A DNA stretch of 39,541 nt from Nitrospirota bacterium. GTDB lineage: Bacteria; Nitrospirota; RBG-16-64-22. The notes under the pieces were generated by a model. The model saw nothing but the letters and a program-made list of their open reading frames with translations. It had not been told where the DNA came from and searched no databases. How positions within the stretch are numbered: the stretch's first letter is position 1; every line of letters begins with the position of its first letter. Below, piece after piece: positions 10,393 through 21,140 of this stretch. A program made the position numbers and the translations under genes. The stretch lies in the NCBI GenBank assembly GCA_016195465.1, contig JACPZO010000114.1:1-39541 (forward strand), given 5' to 3'.

Positions 10393-11442
10393 CTAGACCA
10401 TCCCCAGCACTTTGAATGTCACCTTCGTCCGGTACGTCTTCCCGTAGACCATCGGAATCCCCTCATCCGATTCCCCGTACGGGAGGGGAAAACTCCCCAG
10501 CGGGTCGCCGCCCTGCGGAGGCGCGAGGACGATGTCCCTCCCGATCGAAACCTGCAAGTGGTTGGCAACGAGATTTCCGAAGTAAAATTCCCTGAGGTCG
10601 CGCCTCTTCCAAGCCTCGGACACGTCCACGGGAATCCACTTCCCGTTCGCGTGGACCGAGACCCAGCAATGCGCCCCCGTGCAGTCCCCCTCCAGCTCGC
10701 CCGACTTGCTCCTCTGCGAGGGGTACGGTAGCGCGAGCCCCTGCTCCCACCGCGTCGGGATTCCCCGGCCGATGAGGAGCGTCCGGTAGAGAGCGTGGAA
10801 ATCGTCGCACCGGCCGCGCTTGTTGTCGAACGTCCAGGCCGAGTTTCCCATACCGCAGCCGGGGATCGCTTTGTCGTACGTCAGGAGATCGATCAAGGCG
10901 TCGTACAGGAGACGGGCTGAGCGGACGGGGTCTTTCTCGGCCCCCGCAACCTTCCTGCCGAACGCCTCGATCGCGGACGTCGGCTCTTCCAGTCCGGCGA
11001 GCTTCAGGTGAGGAGCGAGCGCCTTCGCGTCCGCCGGACCCGGCGTCCGCCCCAGCCGCCTCAGGAGAGCCTCGTACCCCACGTCAACGGAGAAGCCCTG
11101 CTGAGGGGTTCTCGCCTCGACATGGAGCATCCGGTTCCCGTACACCGGCTCCGTCTCGATCCGGTGCGGATGCGGGGAAGAAATGGACAACCGGTCGATC
11201 TTTTGGCCGGGCCCGTCAGGAGGAAGCGGAATCCATATCTTGACGATGCCAGCTCCCGGCGGAGGCGCGATGAGCGTTGTCCGGGAATGGACGGCCAGGA
11301 CCATCTCGCTTACCTTGTCGTCCGCGACGGGATTCGCCTCCGCCCCGGCAAGCGCCGTCCGAACGAGACCGTCCCGGCTCCATCCCGAGGCCGCGGTCGT
11401 TCCCAGAACGGCGGCGAACAGGAAGCGGCGGCGCGAGATCAT
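10393..11442 (-). CDS. Exported transglutaminase-like protein
   Basis: A 349-residue protein starting MISRRRFLFAAVLGTTAASG, which looks like a Tat signal (SRRRFLF). The C-terminal half is a transglutaminase-like domain with a complete triad: C212 in GRCDDFHALYRTLL, H258 in GAHCWVSV and D273 in IPVDVSEAW. Bacterial members usually act as cysteine proteases or peptide-processing enzymes. The N-terminal half is a beta-rich domain of about 130 residues, as in many such proteins. The start ATG overlaps the upstream SCO1-like stop (ATGA). Longer upstream frames read through that neighbour and are unlikely. I do not know a role for this family in N2O reduction. Confidence 0.82.
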   Translation of the reverse strand: MISRRRFLFAAVLGTTAASGWSRDGLVRTALAGAEANPVADDKVSEMVLAVHSRTTLIAPPPGAGIVKIWIPLPPDGPGQKIDRLSISSPHPHRIETEPVYGNRMLHVEARTPQQGFSVDVGYEALLRRLGRTPGPADAKALAPHLKLAGLEEPTSAIEAFGRKVAGAEKDPVRSARLLYDALIDLLTYDKAIPGCGMGNSAWTFDNKRGRCDDFHALYRTLLIGRGIPTRWEQGLALPYPSQRSKSGELEGDCTGAHCWVSVHANGKWIPVDVSEAWKRRDLREFYFGNLVANHLQVSIGRDIVLAPPQGGDPLGSFPLPYGESDEGIPMVYGKTYRTKVTFKVLGMV

Positions 11443-12032
11443 CGCGGCTTTTCTTCCAGGAGCTTCTTCAAGGTCGAAACCGCCTCCTCTTCGGAAAAAT
11501 CGAAGCCGTCCCATTCCTTCCGGATCATGCCTCCTCGGTCGATCGCAACGACCTTGGGCGTGAAAACAATCTCGTACCCGACCGGCCAGACCATTTTCTC
11601 GATGGTTATACCGTAGGCCTTCCAAACAGGTTCAAGAACACTCCTCGAAGCGTACAGAAACAACCACCTTTTCTCCTGTTCAGGGTCGATCGCGTAGATC
11701 TTGAAGTATTTCCTTATATTCGCTTGCGTATCCCCTTCCGGATCAACGGAAATTTGTACGTAGAGAAGGTCCTGCGGAGACTTCAGGGTCTCGTCGACGT
11801 CCAGGAACCGTCCCATGATGATCGGGCAGGTGACCTGGCAGTTCGAGTAAGAGAAGGCAAGGAGGATCACCCGGCCCCTGAGCGCTTCCCAGTTGACCGG
11901 CCGGCCGTCGAACCCTGTTCCCGCAAACGATGGGGCAAGGACTCCTGCTTCCGCCCCGGCCGTCAGAAGCAGGAAGAGGAGCGCCGCCCCAAGCCTACAT
12001 CGCCTTGAGTTCGATCTGTTCCTTGAGAACAC
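11439..12032 (-). CDS. SCO1/SenC-family protein with altered copper ligand
   Basis: A 197-residue thioredoxin-fold protein with an N-terminal signal/anchor (CRLGAALLFLLLTAGAEAG). The SCO copper motif CxxxCP is present as NCQVTCP (C65, C69). The third copper ligand of SCO proteins, the histidine of the D-H-S/T loop, appears to be phenylalanine here (YEIVFTPKVVAID, F157). SCO proteins metallate CuA centres. NosZ contains CuA and no NosL is seen, so a CuA-assembly or thiol-reductase role fits. The start is a GTG 38 bases inside the preceding gene, and the end overlaps the next gene by four bases. Confidence 0.8.
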   Translation of the reverse strand: MFSRNRSNSRRCRLGAALLFLLLTAGAEAGVLAPSFAGTGFDGRPVNWEALRGRVILLAFSYSNCQVTCPIIMGRFLDVDETLKSPQDLLYVQISVDPEGDTQANIRKYFKIYAIDPEQEKRWLFLYASRSVLEPVWKAYGITIEKMVWPVGYEIVFTPKVVAIDRGGMIRKEWDGFDFSEEEAVSTLKKLLEEKPR

Positions 12033-12757: not shown

Positions 12758-13600
12758 TTAGGAAATAAAACCCTCTCCGGCGCGCCGCCGAAAGACCGCC
12801 GCCGCAATCGCGAGCGGCGCGGCGATCCACGAGAGAAAAACACCCAAGAGGACCGGCCATGTGAGAGCGGGGGGAAAATCGACGGCGGCCAATCCCACGA
12901 ACATCTTCGTCTCGCCCACGGCGAGGAATCCCAACAGCCGGAAAAGATCGATCGGGTTTGCGGCGAGGAGGCCCGCGAAGACGCCCTCCGGCACTCTCCC
13001 GCCCGAAAGAATCAGGAGACCGATCAAACCGAGATCGTACAGAAGAGCCAGGACGAGCCAGAGGAAAACGGAGACGGCCATCACCTTCGACCTCTCCCGG
13101 ATGAAGACCGAGAGGAGGAACGCGAACCCCAGGAACACAAGACCCAGGAGAACGGCGTTCCCCGTGAAGAGGACGTACGACCCGATCCCCGCGAAGCCCA
13201 TCCGAAGCACCAGGACCGCGCCGGCCGCGCCGAACCCGCCCGCCGTCGCGCCGATGAGGGCCAGAGCCAGCCCCAGGTACTTCCCGGCGACGATTTCGCC
13301 CGGCGTAACGGGGCAGGCGAGCAGAAGGTCGAGCGTCCCGCGGTCGCGCTCATCCGCCATGACGCCCCCTCCGAGGACAAGGGCCAGAAGGGGAATGAAG
13401 TACGTCGCGAGGGACAGGAGGCTCAAAACGGTGAGGGAAAATCCCTGGAAGCCCGCCACGCCGATCGGCGCCGTCCCGAAATAGGCGATCAGGATCGAAA
13501 ACAGCGTGAACCCCACGGCCGTGATCAGGACCCACCGGCTCCTGAGCCGGTCCGAGAACTCCTTGTGGGCGATCGCCCAAACGGCCCTAGTCGACGCCAA
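12758..13600 (-). CDS. nosY: ABC transporter permease NosY
   Basis: A 280-residue membrane protein with about six hydrophobic helices, among them WVLITAVGFTLFSILIAYFG, FIPLLALVLGGGVMADERDRGTLDLLLACPVTPGEIVAGKYLG and MAVSVFLWLVLALLYDLGLIGLLIL. The block MADERDRGTLDLLLACPVTPGEIVAGK is the ABC-2/NosY signature. With NosF and NosD it forms the complex that supplies sulfur or otherwise completes the CuZ centre of NosZ. The start overlaps the end of nosF by 14 bases. Length and helices are normal for NosY. Confidence 0.9.
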   Translation of the reverse strand: MASTRAVWAIAHKEFSDRLRSRWVLITAVGFTLFSILIAYFGTAPIGVAGFQGFSLTVLSLLSLATYFIPLLALVLGGGVMADERDRGTLDLLLACPVTPGEIVAGKYLGLALALIGATAGGFGAAGAVLVLRMGFAGIGSYVLFTGNAVLLGLVFLGFAFLLSVFIRERSKVMAVSVFLWLVLALLYDLGLIGLLILSGGRVPEGVFAGLLAANPIDLFRLLGFLAVGETKMFVGLAAVDFPPALTWPVLLGVFLSWIAAPLAIAAAVFRRRAGEGFIS

Positions 13601-14486
13601 AGAAAACCTCCTCCAGGGACGGCTCCCGGATCGTAAGATCGCGGATCTCCGATTCCCGGTGCATGAGGACGCTCATCACCCTCATCTTGTTCCCGGCCGA
13701 GACGGACGCTTCGATCGTTCCGTTTCCGGCGACGAGATCGTACGCCCCTTCGGCCGCCAAGGCGGCCCCGAGATCGCCCGCCGTCCCGCGCAGGGAGAGG
13801 ATCAGGCGGAGGGGAATGTTGAGGCTCGAACGAAGCTCCTCGAGCGATCCGGCGGCCTTCAGCCGTCCATCCTTGAGGATGGCCGCGCGGTCGATCCGCC
13901 CCTCGATCTCGGCCAGGATGTGGGACGAATGAACGACCGAGACGGCCCGCTCCCGGCGGATCCCGGAGAGGAAGTCGTAGAACTCGCGGATGGCCACCGG
14001 ATCGAGCCCGCTCGTCGGCTCGTCCAGGACGAGCAGGTCGGGATCGGCCAAGAGCGCCTGGGCAAGGTTGAGCCTCTGACGCATCCCCTTGGAGTATCCC
14101 CCCACGCGGCGGTCGCGCGCAGCCTTAAGACCCACGCGATCAAGCATCGGCCCGACCCGCTCGCCGGAGACGCCCTTGAGATCGGCGTAGAACGAGAGGA
14201 CCTCCGCCGCGCTCAGGTTGTCGTAGAACGAGACCCGCTCCGGCATGTATCCGATCCGCGTTCGAAGCCGCGGCCACTCCGCCGGGGCCGGGACCCGTCC
14301 GTTCACGGCGATCTCGCCCGACGTCGGCGGAATGAGCCCCACGAGGATCTTGAGGAGCGTCGTCTTCCCCGACCCGTTCGGACCGACCAGGCCGAGTGTC
14401 TCCCCCTCGCGGACCTCGAGCGAGACATCCGCGAGCGCCTGCACATCTCCAAACGAACGCGAAACGTTACGAAGTTCGATCTTCAT
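13587..14486 (-). CDS. nosF: ABC transporter ATP-binding protein NosF
   Basis: A 299-residue ATPase. Walker A is GPNGSGKTT, the signature motif is YSKGMRQRLNLAQAL, Walker B is LLVLDEPTSGLD, and the switch histidine lies in VVHSSHILAEIE. The first 220 residues form the nucleotide-binding domain and the rest is a regulatory tail, as in NosF. A second ATG four codons upstream (14498) is possible, but it lies in a GGTGAATG-type repeat and has no ribosome site. It powers NosY and works with periplasmic NosD in copper-site maturation of NosZ. Confidence 0.92.
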   Translation of the reverse strand: MKIELRNVSRSFGDVQALADVSLEVREGETLGLVGPNGSGKTTLLKILVGLIPPTSGEIAVNGRVPAPAEWPRLRTRIGYMPERVSFYDNLSAAEVLSFYADLKGVSGERVGPMLDRVGLKAARDRRVGGYSKGMRQRLNLAQALLADPDLLVLDEPTSGLDPVAIREFYDFLSGIRRERAVSVVHSSHILAEIEGRIDRAAILKDGRLKAAGSLEELRSSLNIPLRLILSLRGTAGDLGAALAAEGAYDLVAGNGTIEASVSAGNKMRVMSVLMHRESEIRDLTIREPSLEEVFFGVD

Positions 14487-14498
14487 CGATTCACCCAT

Positions 14499-14615
14499 TC
14501 GCTGATAGCTGTCAGCGGTCAGCTTTCAGCCGTAAGCTGACTGCTGAACGCTGACTGCTTGCCGCTCCATTGTTCACCGATTCACCCATTCACCCATTCA
14601 CCCATTCACCGGCCG
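14499..14615. repeat. Two short-period repeat arrays between nosD and nosF
   Basis: 14505-14560 holds 7-base units of the GTCAGCG/CTGACTG type, repeated with drift. 14569-14612 holds an 8-base array, CATTCACC four times on the plus strand (GGTGAATG on minus). The second array recurs at 27743-27775. Confidence 0.85.
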
Positions 14616-16919
14616 TCATCCCCCCGGCATATGCGGGAGCTTTTCCATCTCGCCGTAGTATTTCGCCGGCCTCCCCGGATGGGCCGCGAGAATCTCCATC
14701 CAGCGAGGAAACATGGGATTCATCGCCGGCCGGCGGTCGACCACGCGCGGCGCCCGGAGGATCGGAAACTGCTTCTCCACCATCCAGAGGAACTGGAGCG
14801 AAGGCGAGAAGAGAAGGAGCTTGGCGGCGGGGTATCGCCATAGAAGCGCGTCCACCAGCGTGTTCGATTCGTACGGAATGTCGCCTTCCCCGTCCTGCCC
14901 CGTGTCCCATCCCATGTAGTCCGACCAGTAGTTACCGTCCCACCGCTCGTCGCGGGCAGCCACGTGCTTGACCTGGATCTCGTTCCGGAAAAACGTGTTG
15001 CGCGTGATCTCGTTCTCCTCGGACCCCCCCCAGGAATGGACGCCCAGGTTGTTGTTGGCGATCAGGTTGTCCGTAACCCTGTTCAGGATCGAATTGTACA
15101 GGAAGAGCCCCTTCGTGTTCCCGATTAGGACGTTCCCGATCATCTGGCTCCGGACCACCTGGATCGCCACGATCCCCTGCGTCGAGTTCCCCACGGAGAC
15201 GTTGCGGTTGGCCTCCGATCCCTTCGTGTACATCAGGGCCAGGCCGACCAGGTTTCCCGCCATCCGGTTGTCGTTGAAGACCCCGTGGTCGCACCACATC
15301 GTGTGAATGGAATACCGGGACCGTTCGATGTCGTTCTTTTCGACCCGGGCGTGGTGCGTGATCTCGAGGTACACGCCGTCCCGCGAGTCCCGGACCACGT
15401 TCTCCCGGACGACCGCCCCGTCCGCCGCGTTGAGCAGGACCCCGTTCCCGCGGGCCTCGACGTCCAGTTCCTTCTTTCCGAGGATCTCGTTCTTCTCGAT
15501 CGCGACGCCGTTCGCCCCGGTCACCCACACGCCGTAGTTCGTATTTTCGATCCGGTTGTTCCGGATGGCGGCGCCGTCGGCCCCCTTGATGACCAGCACG
15601 CCCGCGCCCTGCGTGTCGTGCGTCGTCGGGGCGTTCCGGATCGTGAACCCCTCCACGACGGCGCCCGCCGCCGAGATGCCGACGACCGGCCCTTCCCCGC
15701 CGCCGTCGATCACGGCCCCCGGCCGGCCGCTGAGCCGGACCCGCCTCTCGATCTGGACCCGCTCGCGGTAGGTGCCGGCCGGGACCTCGATCGTATCTCC
15801 CGGCCGCGCCCGCTTCAGGGCTTCGCCGATCGACCCCGCATCTTTCCCGACGACGAGCGTCGCGCCGAAGGCCGTCCCAGGTATTAGCACGAGAACCGTC
15901 AGACCGGCGGCCGCCATGCGTTCCGCCTTCCTCCTCGACGCACGAGGAGGCCGGGGGGCAAGTGCCGGCGGCTCAGGCGCCCGTCCCTTGGCCTTCAGCA
16001 GAAGGACCGGGCATAGCTCGTCGTCATAGTAATTCACCTGGCAGTCCAGGCAGTACAGGCACTCGGCGGCGTCGATCGATCCGTCGCGGCGGATCGCCTG
16101 GGGATCGCAGGACCGCTCGCCGATCCGGCACGTTCCGCAGTAGTCGTACCGCTTGAGCTTGACGATCGGGAAGATCGACGTGAGACGCGCCGGAAAAGCC
16201 AGCATCCCTCCGAGCGGGCAGACGTACCGGCAGAAGGAGCGGTAGACCAGCATCGAAGAGAGGACCACGAGGCCGAACCAGGCGACGAAGATCCAGCCGC
16301 GGTTGAGCTTCACGACGTACGTCTTGAACGGCTCCACCTCCGCCATGTACTCCGAGAGGTAGAAGTCGTAGAACGAGACCCCCAGGATCAGGACAAAGAA
16401 GAAGTATTTGAGATAGACGAGCCTGTTATGCCACGCGACCGGGACCTTCCACGTCCATCGCGGGAACAGCCGCTCGTATCCCTTGTAGAGCAGTTCCAGG
16501 AATGATCCGAAGGGGCAGAGCCACCCGCAAAACGCTCCCCTCCCCCAGAGGAAAACGGTCAGGAGGATGAAAGCGAACGAAAAGAAGATGAACGGATCCA
16601 TGAGGTAGAAGGTCAGGTCCGTCATCCCGCTTTTCAGGTTCTGGGCGGCGATCAGGATGTACGTCGTCCCCGGCTGGGTCCCCAGGACGAGGCCCATGTA
16701 AACGGCCGAGACAACGAGGGCTGTGTTCCTGGCGCGGTCCCGCCAGCGGGGGTGCCGGACCAGCCGGTCCCGGAAAACAAGGAGGAGGATGAGCACGGCG
16801 AGGAAGACGGAGAACGCGACGATGTGAATCGTGTTCCTCTGCCAAACCTGGATCCAGACCGGGGTGATCTCACCCAGGCCGGAAAGGAGCGGATCTTCCA
16901 GCAGAAGTTTCTCGTCCAA
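14616..16919 (-). CDS. NosR polyferredoxin membrane domain fused to NosD
   Basis: One uninterrupted 767-codon frame joins two proteins that are normally separate. Residues 1-310 match the C-terminal half of NosR: five membrane helices, two cytoplasm-facing CxxxCP loops (CGWLCP 131-136, CRYVCP 230-235), and a 2[4Fe-4S]-type cysteine set (C261, C264, C271, C287, C290, C293, C303). A proline-rich linker (residues 312-330) leads to a hydrophobic segment, MAAAGLTVLVLIPGTAFG (335-352), which looks like a retained NosD signal peptide. Residues 353-767 are a right-handed beta-helix with NosD/CASH repeats (VVEGFTIRNAP, IRNNRIENTNYGVWV, VRENVVRDSRDGVYLEI). The NosR flavin domain is encoded by the separate gene just upstream, nine bases away. 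M335 could still serve as an internal start. Confidence 0.88.
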   Translation of the reverse strand: MDEKLLLEDPLLSGLGEITPVWIQVWQRNTIHIVAFSVFLAVLILLLVFRDRLVRHPRWRDRARNTALVVSAVYMGLVLGTQPGTTYILIAAQNLKSGMTDLTFYLMDPFIFFSFAFILLTVFLWGRGAFCGWLCPFGSFLELLYKGYERLFPRWTWKVPVAWHNRLVYLKYFFFVLILGVSFYDFYLSEYMAEVEPFKTYVVKLNRGWIFVAWFGLVVLSSMLVYRSFCRYVCPLGGMLAFPARLTSIFPIVKLKRYDYCGTCRIGERSCDPQAIRRDGSIDAAECLYCLDCQVNYYDDELCPVLLLKAKGRAPEPPALAPRPPRASRRKAERMAAAGLTVLVLIPGTAFGATLVVGKDAGSIGEALKRARPGDTIEVPAGTYRERVQIERRVRLSGRPGAVIDGGGEGPVVGISAAGAVVEGFTIRNAPTTHDTQGAGVLVIKGADGAAIRNNRIENTNYGVWVTGANGVAIEKNEILGKKELDVEARGNGVLLNAADGAVVRENVVRDSRDGVYLEITHHARVEKNDIERSRYSIHTMWCDHGVFNDNRMAGNLVGLALMYTKGSEANRNVSVGNSTQGIVAIQVVRSQMIGNVLIGNTKGLFLYNSILNRVTDNLIANNNLGVHSWGGSEENEITRNTFFRNEIQVKHVAARDERWDGNYWSDYMGWDTGQDGEGDIPYESNTLVDALLWRYPAAKLLLFSPSLQFLWMVEKQFPILRAPRVVDRRPAMNPMFPRWMEILAAHPGRPAKYYGEMEKLPHMPGG

Positions 16920-16928
16920 CCGCTTCCC

Positions 16929-18029
16929 CTACTTCGCCTTCTCCATGTAGGCGTCGGGAAGCCGGTAGGTCTGCTCGAAAGACTTGACCTCCTTGCTCGT
17001 CGTTCCGACGCGGACGGGAAGAACGAGGTTGAAGGCAAATCGATCGCCCGGATCGAAGTCCTTATTGTGGATGAGGAAGATCCCGCCCTCCCGGATGGGC
17101 GGGGCTCCAGCCGCCTTGATCTCCGAGATCAGCGTGTAGTCCACGTCCCGGAAGATGAAGCTCTTGGCCTCCTGCTCGAGGTGGAAGCGGTCGAAGATCC
17201 CGCCGCGGACGAAACCCGTGCCCTTGAACGACCCCGGCCCCGAGGAGACGACGACGAGGATCGACCCGCCTCTCTTCCCCAAGGCGGCCTTGGCCTGCTC
17301 GTAGGCGTTCGCGCCAAGCAGGTTCCGGCCGACGGCCGGAGGATCGGCGAGGGCGAAGTAGAGGTCGAGGTACGGCTGGGCCTCGGCCTTGAGCCCCACG
17401 GTCTCCGGCTTGATCGTGATCCGCTGGACGGCGCCCTTGTCCAGAAGTTCCTTCCACGACTGCGCCGTGAAGGCCTGCGACACCTGGCGCGGGGCCTCGG
17501 TCTTCCGGGCCTGGAGCATGCCCGACTTGAGGGCCGCCCGTCTTGCGCTCCCCAGGACGATCGAGTTCTGGACGACGGCCGTCACGGTCGCGCCCGTGAT
17601 GGCGTCCATCGAGATGCCGCTCCCGACGGCCAGCTTCTCCTTGATGCTCTTCCCGACGTACTGCCGGATGAACGTCTTGTAGTTGTCTTCCTTGAGGCCG
17701 ATCATGACGATCGGCTCGGCGTGGAAGACGACCTTGACCCCCGTCAGGTTCCCCGCCGTGTCCATTCCGATCAGCGTCTCCAGGTGCTTCCCCGCGTACC
17801 CCACGAGGTTGGGCGTCCAATCCTTCGAAAGGAGAACGACCCCGACCATCTTGTTCCCCTTGTATCCTTCCCAGTACCCCTGCTTCTTCACGAACCGGTC
17901 GGCCCCCGGAAGGGCTTCGTTCGGCGTGTAGGGGTAACGATGTTCGAGAAAAGATCCTTCCGCCCGGACGTCATACGAAAAAACCAGGACAAGGACGAGA
18001 GAAACGACAACTGAAAACAGGCCGGTCAT
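16929..18029 (-). CDS. nosR: Stand-alone NosR-type FMN-binding periplasmic protein
   Basis: A 366-residue protein with an N-terminal signal or anchor (FSVVVSLVLVLVFSYDVRA) and an FMN-binding domain. The covalent flavinylation motif is DAITGATVTA, with T148 the likely acceptor. It matches the periplasmic N-terminal half of NosR (VKKQGYWEGYKGNKMVGVVLLSKDW, IGLKEDNYKTFIRQYVGKSIKEKL). It lacks the following membrane helices and cysteine clusters, which are encoded in the next gene fused to NosD. The two proteins together would restore NosR, an electron donor route needed to activate NosZ. It is separated from nosZ by 165 bases containing a strong hairpin. Confidence 0.9.
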   Translation of the reverse strand: MTGLFSVVVSLVLVLVFSYDVRAEGSFLEHRYPYTPNEALPGADRFVKKQGYWEGYKGNKMVGVVLLSKDWTPNLVGYAGKHLETLIGMDTAGNLTGVKVVFHAEPIVMIGLKEDNYKTFIRQYVGKSIKEKLAVGSGISMDAITGATVTAVVQNSIVLGSARRAALKSGMLQARKTEAPRQVSQAFTAQSWKELLDKGAVQRITIKPETVGLKAEAQPYLDLYFALADPPAVGRNLLGANAYEQAKAALGKRGGSILVVVSSGPGSFKGTGFVRGGIFDRFHLEQEAKSFIFRDVDYTLISEIKAAGAPPIREGGIFLIHNKDFDPGDRFAFNLVLPVRVGTTSKEVKSFEQTYRLPDAYMEKAK

Positions 18030-18194: not shown

Positions 18195-20033
18195 CTAGAC
18201 TTCAACGATGAGCCGCATTCTCATCTCGAGGTGCAGGGCATGGCAGAAGTTGGTGCAGTAGATCCAGTGGACCCCCGGTTTGTCGGCCGTGAAAGTCACG
18301 GACTTGGTCTGGTAGGGAGACACCACGAAGTTGACGTTGTAGTTCGAGATATTGAACCCGTGCGACAGGTCCGTGATCTCGTCGTGGTTCGTCACGTAGA
18401 ACGTGACCTTGTTCCCCTTCTTGACCTTGACCTCCTGGAACCCGTACACGGGGGCGTTCGCCGTCATCCGGACGATGACGTCGTTTCCCTTCCGGATGAT
18501 CTCGTTCTTGTGAACGGCCATCGGATGGTCCGACATGTTGTAGCGGTGCTTGACCTTCGGCTCCACGAGGTCCCGCCTGACCATGATGACGTCGTGGGGC
18601 TCGATGTAAGCCGGCTCGTCCTTCACGATGACGAGCTTCTCCCCCGTCAGGTCGATCAACTGCTCGTTCTCGGGCTTGAGCGGACCGACGTTCAGGAACC
18701 GGTCCTTGGAGATCTTGTTGAGCGAGACGAGCCACTTCCCGTCGGCTTCCTTCGTCTCCGCCATCGTCGCCATGATGTGGCCGACCTGGTAGCTGATGTC
18801 GAGGACGTGAACGTGGGGCTTCTTCTCCCCCTTGACGGCCCGGTCGATGTTCCACTTCACGTTCGTGGAGTCGATGAAGACCGACGTGATCGCGTTCCCG
18901 CGCCCGTCGAACGTCGTGTGGAGCGGCCCCAGGCCGATCTCCGGCTGGGCGACGACGCACTTCTCGGGCTTGATCTTCCCGGCGAACGCCTCGTCGATCT
19001 TGGCCAGCTCGACCACCGAGCAGGTGGGCGAGACCTTCCCCGAGCAGACCCCGTACTTGCCGTCCGGGGAGATGTTGATGCCGTGCGGGTTCTTGGGAAC
19101 GGGGATCCGGAGCGTGAGGTCCGACCCCTTCCGGCCGTCGAGAACGCGGATGCCGGAGATCGTCTTGTACTTGCCGGCCTTGAGGGCCGCCCTGATCCGC
19201 TCCCAGTGGAAGACGATCAGAAAGTCGGTATCGAAGGCCAGGTACTCGGCGAGCGTGACCCCCTTCTCCGGGTTGTACGAAGTGGACATGGAATACTTGC
19301 CCTGGTAGTCGCACGCGGTCAAGTCCACGTTCTCGTCCAGCATGATCTGGCAGACGATCCCCATCGTCGCCGCGTCGATGATCGTGTGCATGCCGTAGTA
19401 GTTCTGCGGCTTGTTGAAGTTCGCCGCGTTCGACGCGTCGTTCGGGACCGGGATCTGGAACTCCGTGTTCGTCACGACCCATTCCGTCTTCGGGTACCGC
19501 TGGGGGAACGTCCCGTGCAACCCCTGGGCGTTGGGGATGCTCACGATCGCGTCCGTCTCCATGTAGTCCATCCGGATCCGGGCGACGCGGTTGTTCCCCT
19601 TGTCGTTGACGAAGAGCCATTTCCCGTCGTACGTCCCGTTCACGTACGAGCCGTGGACGTGGTGCGTGTCGCCCACGAAGGTCCCCTTGAGGAGCTTCTT
19701 CGACTCGTTCGTGATCCCGTAGCCGCTCCCGACGTCCATGCAGAAGACGGGGATCCGGTGAAGCTGACGCATCGAGGGAACGCCCAGGATCCGGACCTCG
19801 CCCGAGTGTCCGCCGCTCCAGAAGCCGTAGTACGGATCGAGCTCGCCCGGCTTGATCTCGTAGCTTTGCCCGCCGTTCTTCTCCGCCGCGTGGGCCGTGG
19901 ACGCTTCGAATATCTGTTTCTGGGCGTGCTCCGAGAGGATCGTCCGGGGAAGAACCAATCCCGCCCCGGCCGCCGCCCCGGTGATTCCCAGTGTCTTCAG
20001 AAAATCCCTTCGGTTGAACCTCTTTTTGCTCAT
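18195..20033 (-). CDS. nosZ: Nitrous oxide reductase
   Basis: A 612-residue periplasmic enzyme that reduces N2O to N2 with two electrons. The N-terminus RFNRRDFLKTLGITGAAAGAG is a twin-arginine signal, so the protein is exported folded. The seven-bladed propeller carries the CuZ histidines in DTHHVHG (H124, H125, H127 region), GLHGTF, PHGINISP, GPLHTTFDG, the VGHIMAT region and EPHDVIM. The C-terminal cupredoxin domain holds CuA: C593, C597, H601 and M604 in CTNFCHALHLEM, with the upstream histidine in DLSHGF. All copper ligands appear intact. AGGGGAGG precedes the ATG. The preceding gene is a dihaem cytochrome c, the probable electron donor. The Tat signal and NosR components resemble clade I. 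Some motifs resemble clade II, so the clade needs a tree. Confidence 0.97.
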   Translation of the reverse strand: MSKKRFNRRDFLKTLGITGAAAGAGLVLPRTILSEHAQKQIFEASTAHAAEKNGGQSYEIKPGELDPYYGFWSGGHSGEVRILGVPSMRQLHRIPVFCMDVGSGYGITNESKKLLKGTFVGDTHHVHGSYVNGTYDGKWLFVNDKGNNRVARIRMDYMETDAIVSIPNAQGLHGTFPQRYPKTEWVVTNTEFQIPVPNDASNAANFNKPQNYYGMHTIIDAATMGIVCQIMLDENVDLTACDYQGKYSMSTSYNPEKGVTLAEYLAFDTDFLIVFHWERIRAALKAGKYKTISGIRVLDGRKGSDLTLRIPVPKNPHGINISPDGKYGVCSGKVSPTCSVVELAKIDEAFAGKIKPEKCVVAQPEIGLGPLHTTFDGRGNAITSVFIDSTNVKWNIDRAVKGEKKPHVHVLDISYQVGHIMATMAETKEADGKWLVSLNKISKDRFLNVGPLKPENEQLIDLTGEKLVIVKDEPAYIEPHDVIMVRRDLVEPKVKHRYNMSDHPMAVHKNEIIRKGNDVIVRMTANAPVYGFQEVKVKKGNKVTFYVTNHDEITDLSHGFNISNYNVNFVVSPYQTKSVTFTADKPGVHWIYCTNFCHALHLEMRMRLIVEV

Positions 20034-20085: not shown

Positions 20086-20880
20086 CTACTTCACCTTGCC
20101 CATCATCTTGAGCGAATATGAAACAAGGTGCCACCGGTCGGCCTCTCCAAGAGAGTCGGCGTACGAGGGCATCGGCGTGCCGTCGACGCCGGTCGTGAAC
20201 GTGCGGTAGATGTCCTCAATGTCCGGGCCGCCCTTCAGCGCCCCCGAGGTGAAGTCGAACGGAACGCTCGGATCGCCCCAGTCGTCCTTGAGCGTGGCCA
20301 CGGACGGGCCGTCGCCCAATCCCTTTTCCCCGTGGCATTCCCAGCACTTCATGTCCTTCCATATCTTCTCGCCCTTGGCCGCGGACGCGCTGGAACCCGC
20401 TTCCGCCGGCTTCTTGATGGCGATCGACTTTCCGGGCTTGTCCTGCTTCCATCTGGGGGAGAACGCCTTGATGTAGGCCATGACGGCCTTGATTTCGTTG
20501 GCGGGAACGTCGATATGGGACGGCATGCCGGACCGGGGGATCCCGTTGCGGATCACTCTCTCCAGGTCCGCGTCCGTGGGCAGTTCGCCCGTCATCGTCG
20601 AGCGGAACTTGAAGATGCCCGCCGTAAAATCGCGCGGGTACGAGACCCAGGTCAGGCCCCTCTTCTCGACGCGGTGGATGATCCCGACGAGCCCTTTCCC
20701 GTCGCCCTTATCGCCGTGGCAGATCCCGCACCGGCTCGCGTAAACCTTCTTGCCCAAATCCGCTTCGCTGCCCGCGCCGAAGGCGTCCGCCCCGGCGAAC
20801 AGGGTCCATACCGTAATCCCCGCGATGCCCAGACCCAGACATACGCCTCGCCCGCGCTCGCGTTTCGCAATCGATCGCAT
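20086..20880 (-). CDS. Exported dihaem cytochrome c of the nos operon
   Basis: A 264-residue protein with a signal peptide (CLGLGIAGITVWTLFAGADAFG) and two cytochrome c domains. The haem motifs are CGICH (C51-H55) and CWECH (C179-H183), and the probable methionine ligands are in RSGMPSHI and GTPMPSYAD. The ATG at 20880 is chosen because GAGGAGGTG stands just before it. Longer frames upstream add only non-signal sequence. As the first gene of the run, 52 bases ahead of nosZ, it most likely feeds electrons to CuA of NosZ, as the NosC-type cytochromes of many nos clusters do. Confidence 0.92.
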   Translation of the reverse strand: MRSIAKRERGRGVCLGLGIAGITVWTLFAGADAFGAGSEADLGKKVYASRCGICHGDKGDGKGLVGIIHRVEKRGLTWVSYPRDFTAGIFKFRSTMTGELPTDADLERVIRNGIPRSGMPSHIDVPANEIKAVMAYIKAFSPRWKQDKPGKSIAIKKPAEAGSSASAAKGEKIWKDMKCWECHGEKGLGDGPSVATLKDDWGDPSVPFDFTSGALKGGPDIEDIYRTFTTGVDGTPMPSYADSLGEADRWHLVSYSLKMMGKVK

Positions 20881-21140
20881 AGCCACCTCCTCAACGGTGT
20901 TGCCGGTTAACCGTATGGCCGTGAAGCCGCTCCACGACATGAGCCGGATTCCCATCGTCCCGCGAGACTCACCTCCTCTCCCGACGGATCGGCCGGCACT
21001 TCATGAGCAAACGAAATCGCCTCGGCGTCGAGGGCCCATCCGGACAGAACAAGCCTGTCCTGTGCAAAGGGTTCTTGATTCGGTTTGGAAGAAATCAATA
21101 AACGCTGGCACCCCTCACGACCATGTGCAGGACAACCAGA

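Follow-up and report, generated by a model that had tools for sequence, protein, structure and literature searches.

Canonical NosR (NCBIfam model NF046105), as represented by the proteins of Pseudomonas stutzeri and Paracoccus, unites in one polypeptide a flavin mononucleotide (FMN) domain with a TGAT-type site, a membrane module with two CX3CP motifs, and two C-terminal ferredoxin motifs; its gene lies within an operon for a nitrous oxide reductase (nosZ) of the twin-arginine translocation (Tat) type. Nitrous oxide reduction requires NosR, whose exact role (electron donor, regulator, or also a part in maturation) is unsettled (PMC7660919). NosD of the NosDFY system (TIGR04247; 7o0y) consists of a complete β-helix and a C-terminal segment, and its gene is followed by nosF and nosY. 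All of these elements recur in a 39,541-nucleotide stretch of DNA from a Nitrospirota bacterium (contig JACPZO010000114.1 of assembly GCA_016195465.1; the window, meaning this stretch at its full length). Unlike canonical NosR, however, the window encodes the FMN domain and the membrane-bound iron-sulfur half in two genes, the first ferredoxin motif is one cysteine short, and the iron-sulfur half carries NosD at its C-terminus, so that nosD is here not a gene of its own but the 3' part of a gene for a membrane iron-sulfur protein. A NapH/NosR-like membrane iron-sulfur protein next to a separate secreted FMN protein is also found in NapH-like flavinylated systems (Meheust et al., 2021; PMC8238504), for which that survey counts 539 clusters in which a second gene supplies the FMN domain and 1926 in which this domain is fused; a fusion to NosD is not mentioned there, as far as the survey was searched. 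While placement of the FMN domain on a gene of its own is thus of a known kind, the NosR-NosD fusion is a real and recurrent gene architecture that has apparently not been described before. Tat-type NosZ has been reported from aquifer Nitrospirota, the class RBG-16-64-22 included, in a study that makes no mention of NosR (PMC11033732). Nothing relevant on a fusion of NosR with NosD or on a split NosR was found in the literature searched, whose coverage leaves out most subscription journals; a preliminary description of this DNA had likewise known of no such protein.

The fused gene (positions 14616-16919; this and all other features of the window discussed below are on the minus strand) is an open reading frame of 767 codons that begins with TTG and contains no internal stop. 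Its first 311 codons (15987-16919) specify the membrane helices and the iron-sulfur domain of NosR (the NosR-C module), and residues 19-311 match positions 390-679 of the NosR model. The β-helix and the C-terminal NosY-docking segment of NosD follow at residues 354-767 (14619-15860): residues 365-734 match the NosD family model TIGR04247 with 389 bits (cut-off 300), and P. stutzeri NosD (PDB 7o0y, chain A) is matched over residues 378-734, with a target-normalized Foldseek TM-score of 0.84 and 36% identity. These data bear out the earlier proposal that the iron-sulfur half of NosR is fused to a complete NosD. AlphaFold2 modeled the fused protein as two confident domains, a membrane bundle (about residues 20-250) and NosD (354-750), with predicted local distance difference test (pLDDT) values mostly above 90 in the NosD part. 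Confidence was weak for the iron-sulfur region, the linker and the signal helix (326-344), and pLDDT fell below 50 at residues 314-326. The relative placement of the two domains was not settled by this prediction (predicted TM-score 0.60). With P0001 as query, no solved structure of a NosR relative was found. The window's own genome contained no second copy of either the polyferredoxin half or NosD at E <= 0.001.

The FMN half of NosR is encoded directly upstream as a separate gene (16929-18029) for a protein of 366 amino acids with an N-terminal signal peptide, which matches positions 23-375 of the NosR model. Since the gene is split, the two halves, with scores of 231 bits for the FMN half and 251 bits for the iron-sulfur half, each stay below the whole-protein cut-off of 1000 bits. 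The putative flavinylation site is T148 within TGATVTA (codon 17586-17588), the residue already singled out in the preliminary description of a separate secreted protein, and T148 is invariant in 23 relatives. The structural model of the FMN half (pLDDT 86.8) has RnfG as its best match in the PDB. Rather than one polypeptide with all NosR domains, the window thus possesses two genes that share a reading frame and are separated by a single TAG, located 10 bases upstream of the TTG at which the fused gene starts, with an AGGGG ribosome-binding-like sequence in between (16917-16931). This TAG and TAGGGGAAGCGGTTG are identical across all three species of the window genus. We considered that TAG might be read as a rare amino acid and rejected read-through, since the two genes overlap or lie in different frames in several relatives; genome G373, in which a cytochrome c gene (L079:6925-7821, plus strand) is inserted between the FMN-half and fused genes, also rules it out. 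The same insertion hints that the FMN protein may have a cytochrome as its partner. Wherever we found the FMN half in a Nitrospirota cluster, it is encoded by a gene of its own. In genome G369 (L090:7583-13893, minus strand), the split NosR halves adjoin a Sec-type (clade II) nosZ and a separate nosD; the NosR parts accompany here an enzyme that usually has NosB instead.

The iron-sulfur half retains both CX3CP motifs, CGWLCP (16512-16529) and CRYVCP (16215-16232), and an intact second ferredoxin motif (16011-16061). The preliminary description had all cysteines present, which is not correct: the first ferredoxin motif, CGTCRIGERSC (residues 261-271; 16107-16139), is degenerate and reads C-x2-C-x2-G-x3-C in each of the three species that make up the genus here, with G267 in place of the third cysteine. 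This position is Cys in all other relatives and in canonical and Pseudomonadota NosR, and only one complete [4Fe-4S] cysteine motif is left in the window protein. Judged from this substitution, the first cluster of the window genus may be of the [3Fe-4S] type or use another ligand.

Sets of 148 and about 396 Nitrospirota genomes were searched, and the loci recovered were then read individually. The same fusion is present in 14 of the approximately 396 genomes (G000, G001, G002, G115, G149, G155, G237, G243, G297, G349, G373, G379, G383 and G395), which represent about six families and whose proteins are 44-95% identical to that of the window; the fusion in G297 was read across a contig break at which the overlap of its two contigs is imperfect. 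Nine further genomes (G061, G082, G098, G121, G191, G208, G265, G311 and G327) carry the iron-sulfur half and nosD as adjacent separate genes. The search for other fusions called for at the outset thus succeeded, the worry that relatives might all encode two genes has not materialized, and a restriction of the fusion to a single genus is rejected. The fusion was seen neither in the roughly 50 Pseudomonadota genomes, out of 399 searched, that have both parts nor among the matches from a 72,556-plasmid collection; NosR of this phylum is one protein of mostly about 700-800 residues. Other phyla were covered by a single scan of genome contigs with patterns derived from the fused protein, which returned Nitrospirae bacterium RBG_16_64_22 and a metagenome-assembled genome (MAG) from Hainich groundwater among the relatives of the window.

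In a tree inferred by maximum likelihood from the concatenated parts, the fused and the two-gene states change 5 times within Nitrospirota, at least 3 of these changes being forced by well supported branches; the tree does not tell gain from loss. The window genus, in the fused state, is the first branch. Its three species display ratios of non-synonymous to synonymous substitution rates (dN/dS) of 0.11-0.13 for the iron-sulfur (FER) part and of 0.18-0.19 for NosD, which indicates purifying selection on either side of the join. Two loci of unusual build were noted in the course of this survey. In G191 (L077:5991-8327, minus strand), the iron-sulfur half and NosD lie in one frame with a single TAG between them, an arrangement that reads as an intermediate between the fused and two-gene states. 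In G133 (L049:4917-6383, minus strand), the C-terminus of the FER part is fused to NosD, an in-frame TGA interrupts the FER part upstream, and neither an intact FMN gene nor an intact nosZ gene was found in the fetched stretch; this locus is possibly decaying or misassembled.

Downstream of the iron-sulfur domain come, in this order, a run of basic residues, a hydrophobic helix and the first strand of NosD. A linker at residues 312-334 (15918-15986), first proline-rich, then basic, and unconserved, is followed by a helix at residues 335-352 (15864-15917; MAAAGLTVLVLIPGTAFG). The proline-rich character noted earlier holds for the window species and its nearest relative, whereas most other fusions possess a short basic linker. 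The linker changes fast, with a dN/dS near 0.9 against the third species of the genus (0.84-0.92 for linker plus signal helix). This third species (G002) has about 50 extra linker residues with the frame preserved. The extra in-frame stretches in the linkers of G002 (L091:14950-15120, plus strand, approximate) and G297 (L085 near 8200, plus strand, approximate) resemble translated intergenic repeats (SPLAGEDQGGG...HPHPDLPPSRGKG; NPPLSPLVRGKLKEG). The helix, previously described as a retained signal-like segment, is indeed retained, and its features identify it as an intact NosD signal peptide, in which signal peptidase I is predicted to cut between residues 352 and 353 (AFG|A; 15864/15863). 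The corresponding -3/-1 motif, with position -1 small and position -3 taken by a permitted residue, lies at a single fixed offset from the first β-strand in all 14 fusions; the intervening position varies freely (F, S, Y, D, R, W, T, L, A or H). At the neighboring offsets -2 and -4 the rule is satisfied by 1/14 and 0/14 sequences. NosD proteins encoded by two-gene loci carry the motif at the same offset in eight of nine cases, and their in-between residue varies as it does in the fusions. The motif has been kept in the window genus even though the dN/dS of the signal helix is 0.64-0.84. We take this pattern as a signal peptidase I site maintained by selection; a permanent membrane anchor would not need the motif.

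Based on these sequence comparisons, we consider it somewhat more likely than not that the fused gene encodes a polyprotein that is cut into NosR-C and free NosD. The gene layout shows that NosR of Nitrospirota with a Tat-type nosZ comes as two proteins, one secreted and carrying the FMN domain, the other a membrane polyferredoxin, whose gene is joined in frame to the adjacent nosD. The NosR-C part would insert into the membrane with its iron-sulfur domain in the cytoplasm, the retained signal peptide would then cross the membrane and NosD would be exported. Cleavage behind the signal peptide by signal peptidase I would leave NosR-C with one extra C-terminal helix and release a normal mature NosD for NosDFY, the transporter for copper-site assembly. 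The FMN protein, probably flavinylated by ApbE, which is encoded in the window's genome, would pass electrons together with NosR-C to NosZ, as is thought for canonical NosR. The fusion would thereby fix equal synthesis and co-delivery of both parts and leave the final products unchanged; repeated interconversion of the fused and two-gene states is to be expected because the end products would be the same. A precedent for such a layout is FbcH, the cytochrome b-c1 precursor of Bradyrhizobium, in which one open reading frame encodes a membrane protein, an internal signal peptide with its cut site and a periplasmic protein, and whose cleavage is reported to have been shown by experiment. The proteins involved are unrelated to those of the window, for which cleavage is predicted only. 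Several points speak against a cleaved polyprotein. The rule for the motif is also passed by nine of the 14 sequences at each of the offsets -3 and -5, since this region is rich in small residues (Ala/Ser-rich c-regions); the conservation of the motif rests on 14 related sequences; helices resembling signal peptides can remain uncleaved; and an internal ATG in the window species could yield NosD separately.

The preliminary description had envisaged a permanent tether, in which the helix stays uncleaved as a transmembrane segment, holds NosD covalently on the iron-sulfur module of NosR and couples electron supply to CuZ assembly. We regard this as possible, though unlikely. The in-frame fusion has been retained in several lineages, the topology would fit (iron-sulfur domain inside, one helix, NosD outside), and in most fusions the uncharged run of the helix comprises at least 19 residues, enough to span the membrane. 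The signal peptidase motif at its fixed position in each of the 14 fusions and the frequent switching with two-gene forms argue against it, as does the geometry of the protein. NosD contacts NosY through its C-terminal segment, which is conserved in the window protein, and in the AlphaFold2 model only about nine flexible residues separate the signal helix from the first β-strand. The N-terminal end of a β-helix of about 12 coils (about 4.8 Å each) would lie far from the membrane, a distance that some nine residues would hardly bridge; with the docking end at the opposite end of the β-helix, a tethered NosD would therefore struggle to stand on NosY. Taken together, the fixed -3/-1 motif, the interconversion of states and the short gap make the cleaved polyprotein the better fit and the best supported of the two, and the permanent tether is not what the best evidence favors. 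It is possible, though unlikely, that the fusion stays uncut in many Nitrospirota, with electron delivery and the copper and sulfur loading of CuZ brought together in one NosR-NosDFY membrane complex; this would reveal a role of NosR in maturation.

Less likely still, ordinary NosD might be made from an internal start besides the long protein, the open frame being partly incidental. An ATG (15915-15917) at the start of the signal peptide is preceded, 12 bases upstream, by AGGAGG (15930-15935) in the window species and its nearest relative, and G297 has AAAGGAGG 8 bases upstream of its internal start. The 12-base spacing is long, however, and in the window species a signal peptide begun at the internal Met would contain no basic residues. 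No usable internal start before the helix was found in at least eight fusions, the third species of the genus included; the long protein must therefore be their source of NosD, and internal initiation is rejected as an explanation for them. For the window species, these sequence features leave both routes to NosD open, and it could come from the long product or from the internal start. An assembly or sequencing artefact (the window is one contig of a 198-contig MAG), including the lost stop codon once feared, or a decaying pseudogene is to be dismissed, since relatives refute it: the same architecture recurs in 14 genomes, dN/dS is low on both sides of the join, and the operon is complete.

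The phylum-wide recurrence of a fusion with NosD, the CuZ assembly protein, provides independent genomic evidence that both parts act at one site and in equal numbers, and the fused genes lend themselves to direct tests of the role of NosR. If the protein is cut, it would represent a case, rare among bacteria, of a respiratory polyprotein processed by signal peptidase; if it is not, electron supply and copper-site assembly would be located within one complex. For genome annotation, searches with full-length NosR can miss Nitrospirota, which are mostly uncultured groundwater bacteria.

The operon in which the fused gene resides runs from a c-type cytochrome gene (20086-20955) and the Tat-type nosZ (18195-20033; TIGR04244, 802 bits versus a cut-off of 625) through the FMN gene and the fused gene to nosF (13587-14498), encoding the ATPase of the ATP-binding cassette (ABC) transporter, nosY (12758-13600), encoding its membrane subunit, a gene for a periplasmic-type protein, and a gene for an SCO1/SenC-like copper chaperone (11439-12032; PF02630). 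The NosD-encoding gene of the window is accordingly accompanied by both nosF and nosY. NosL (PF05573) was not found in the 93% complete genome G000, in which nosZDFY are present, and copper might come from the product of the SCO-like gene instead; this gene is similarly placed in the loci of several relatives. In G002, nosF and nosY form one open frame of 584 residues (L091:16498-18249, plus strand), a second in-frame fusion of the operon. Between the fused gene and nosF, the window contains short direct repeats of the cacccattcacccattcaccc and gctgtcagcggtcagc types (14500-14616).

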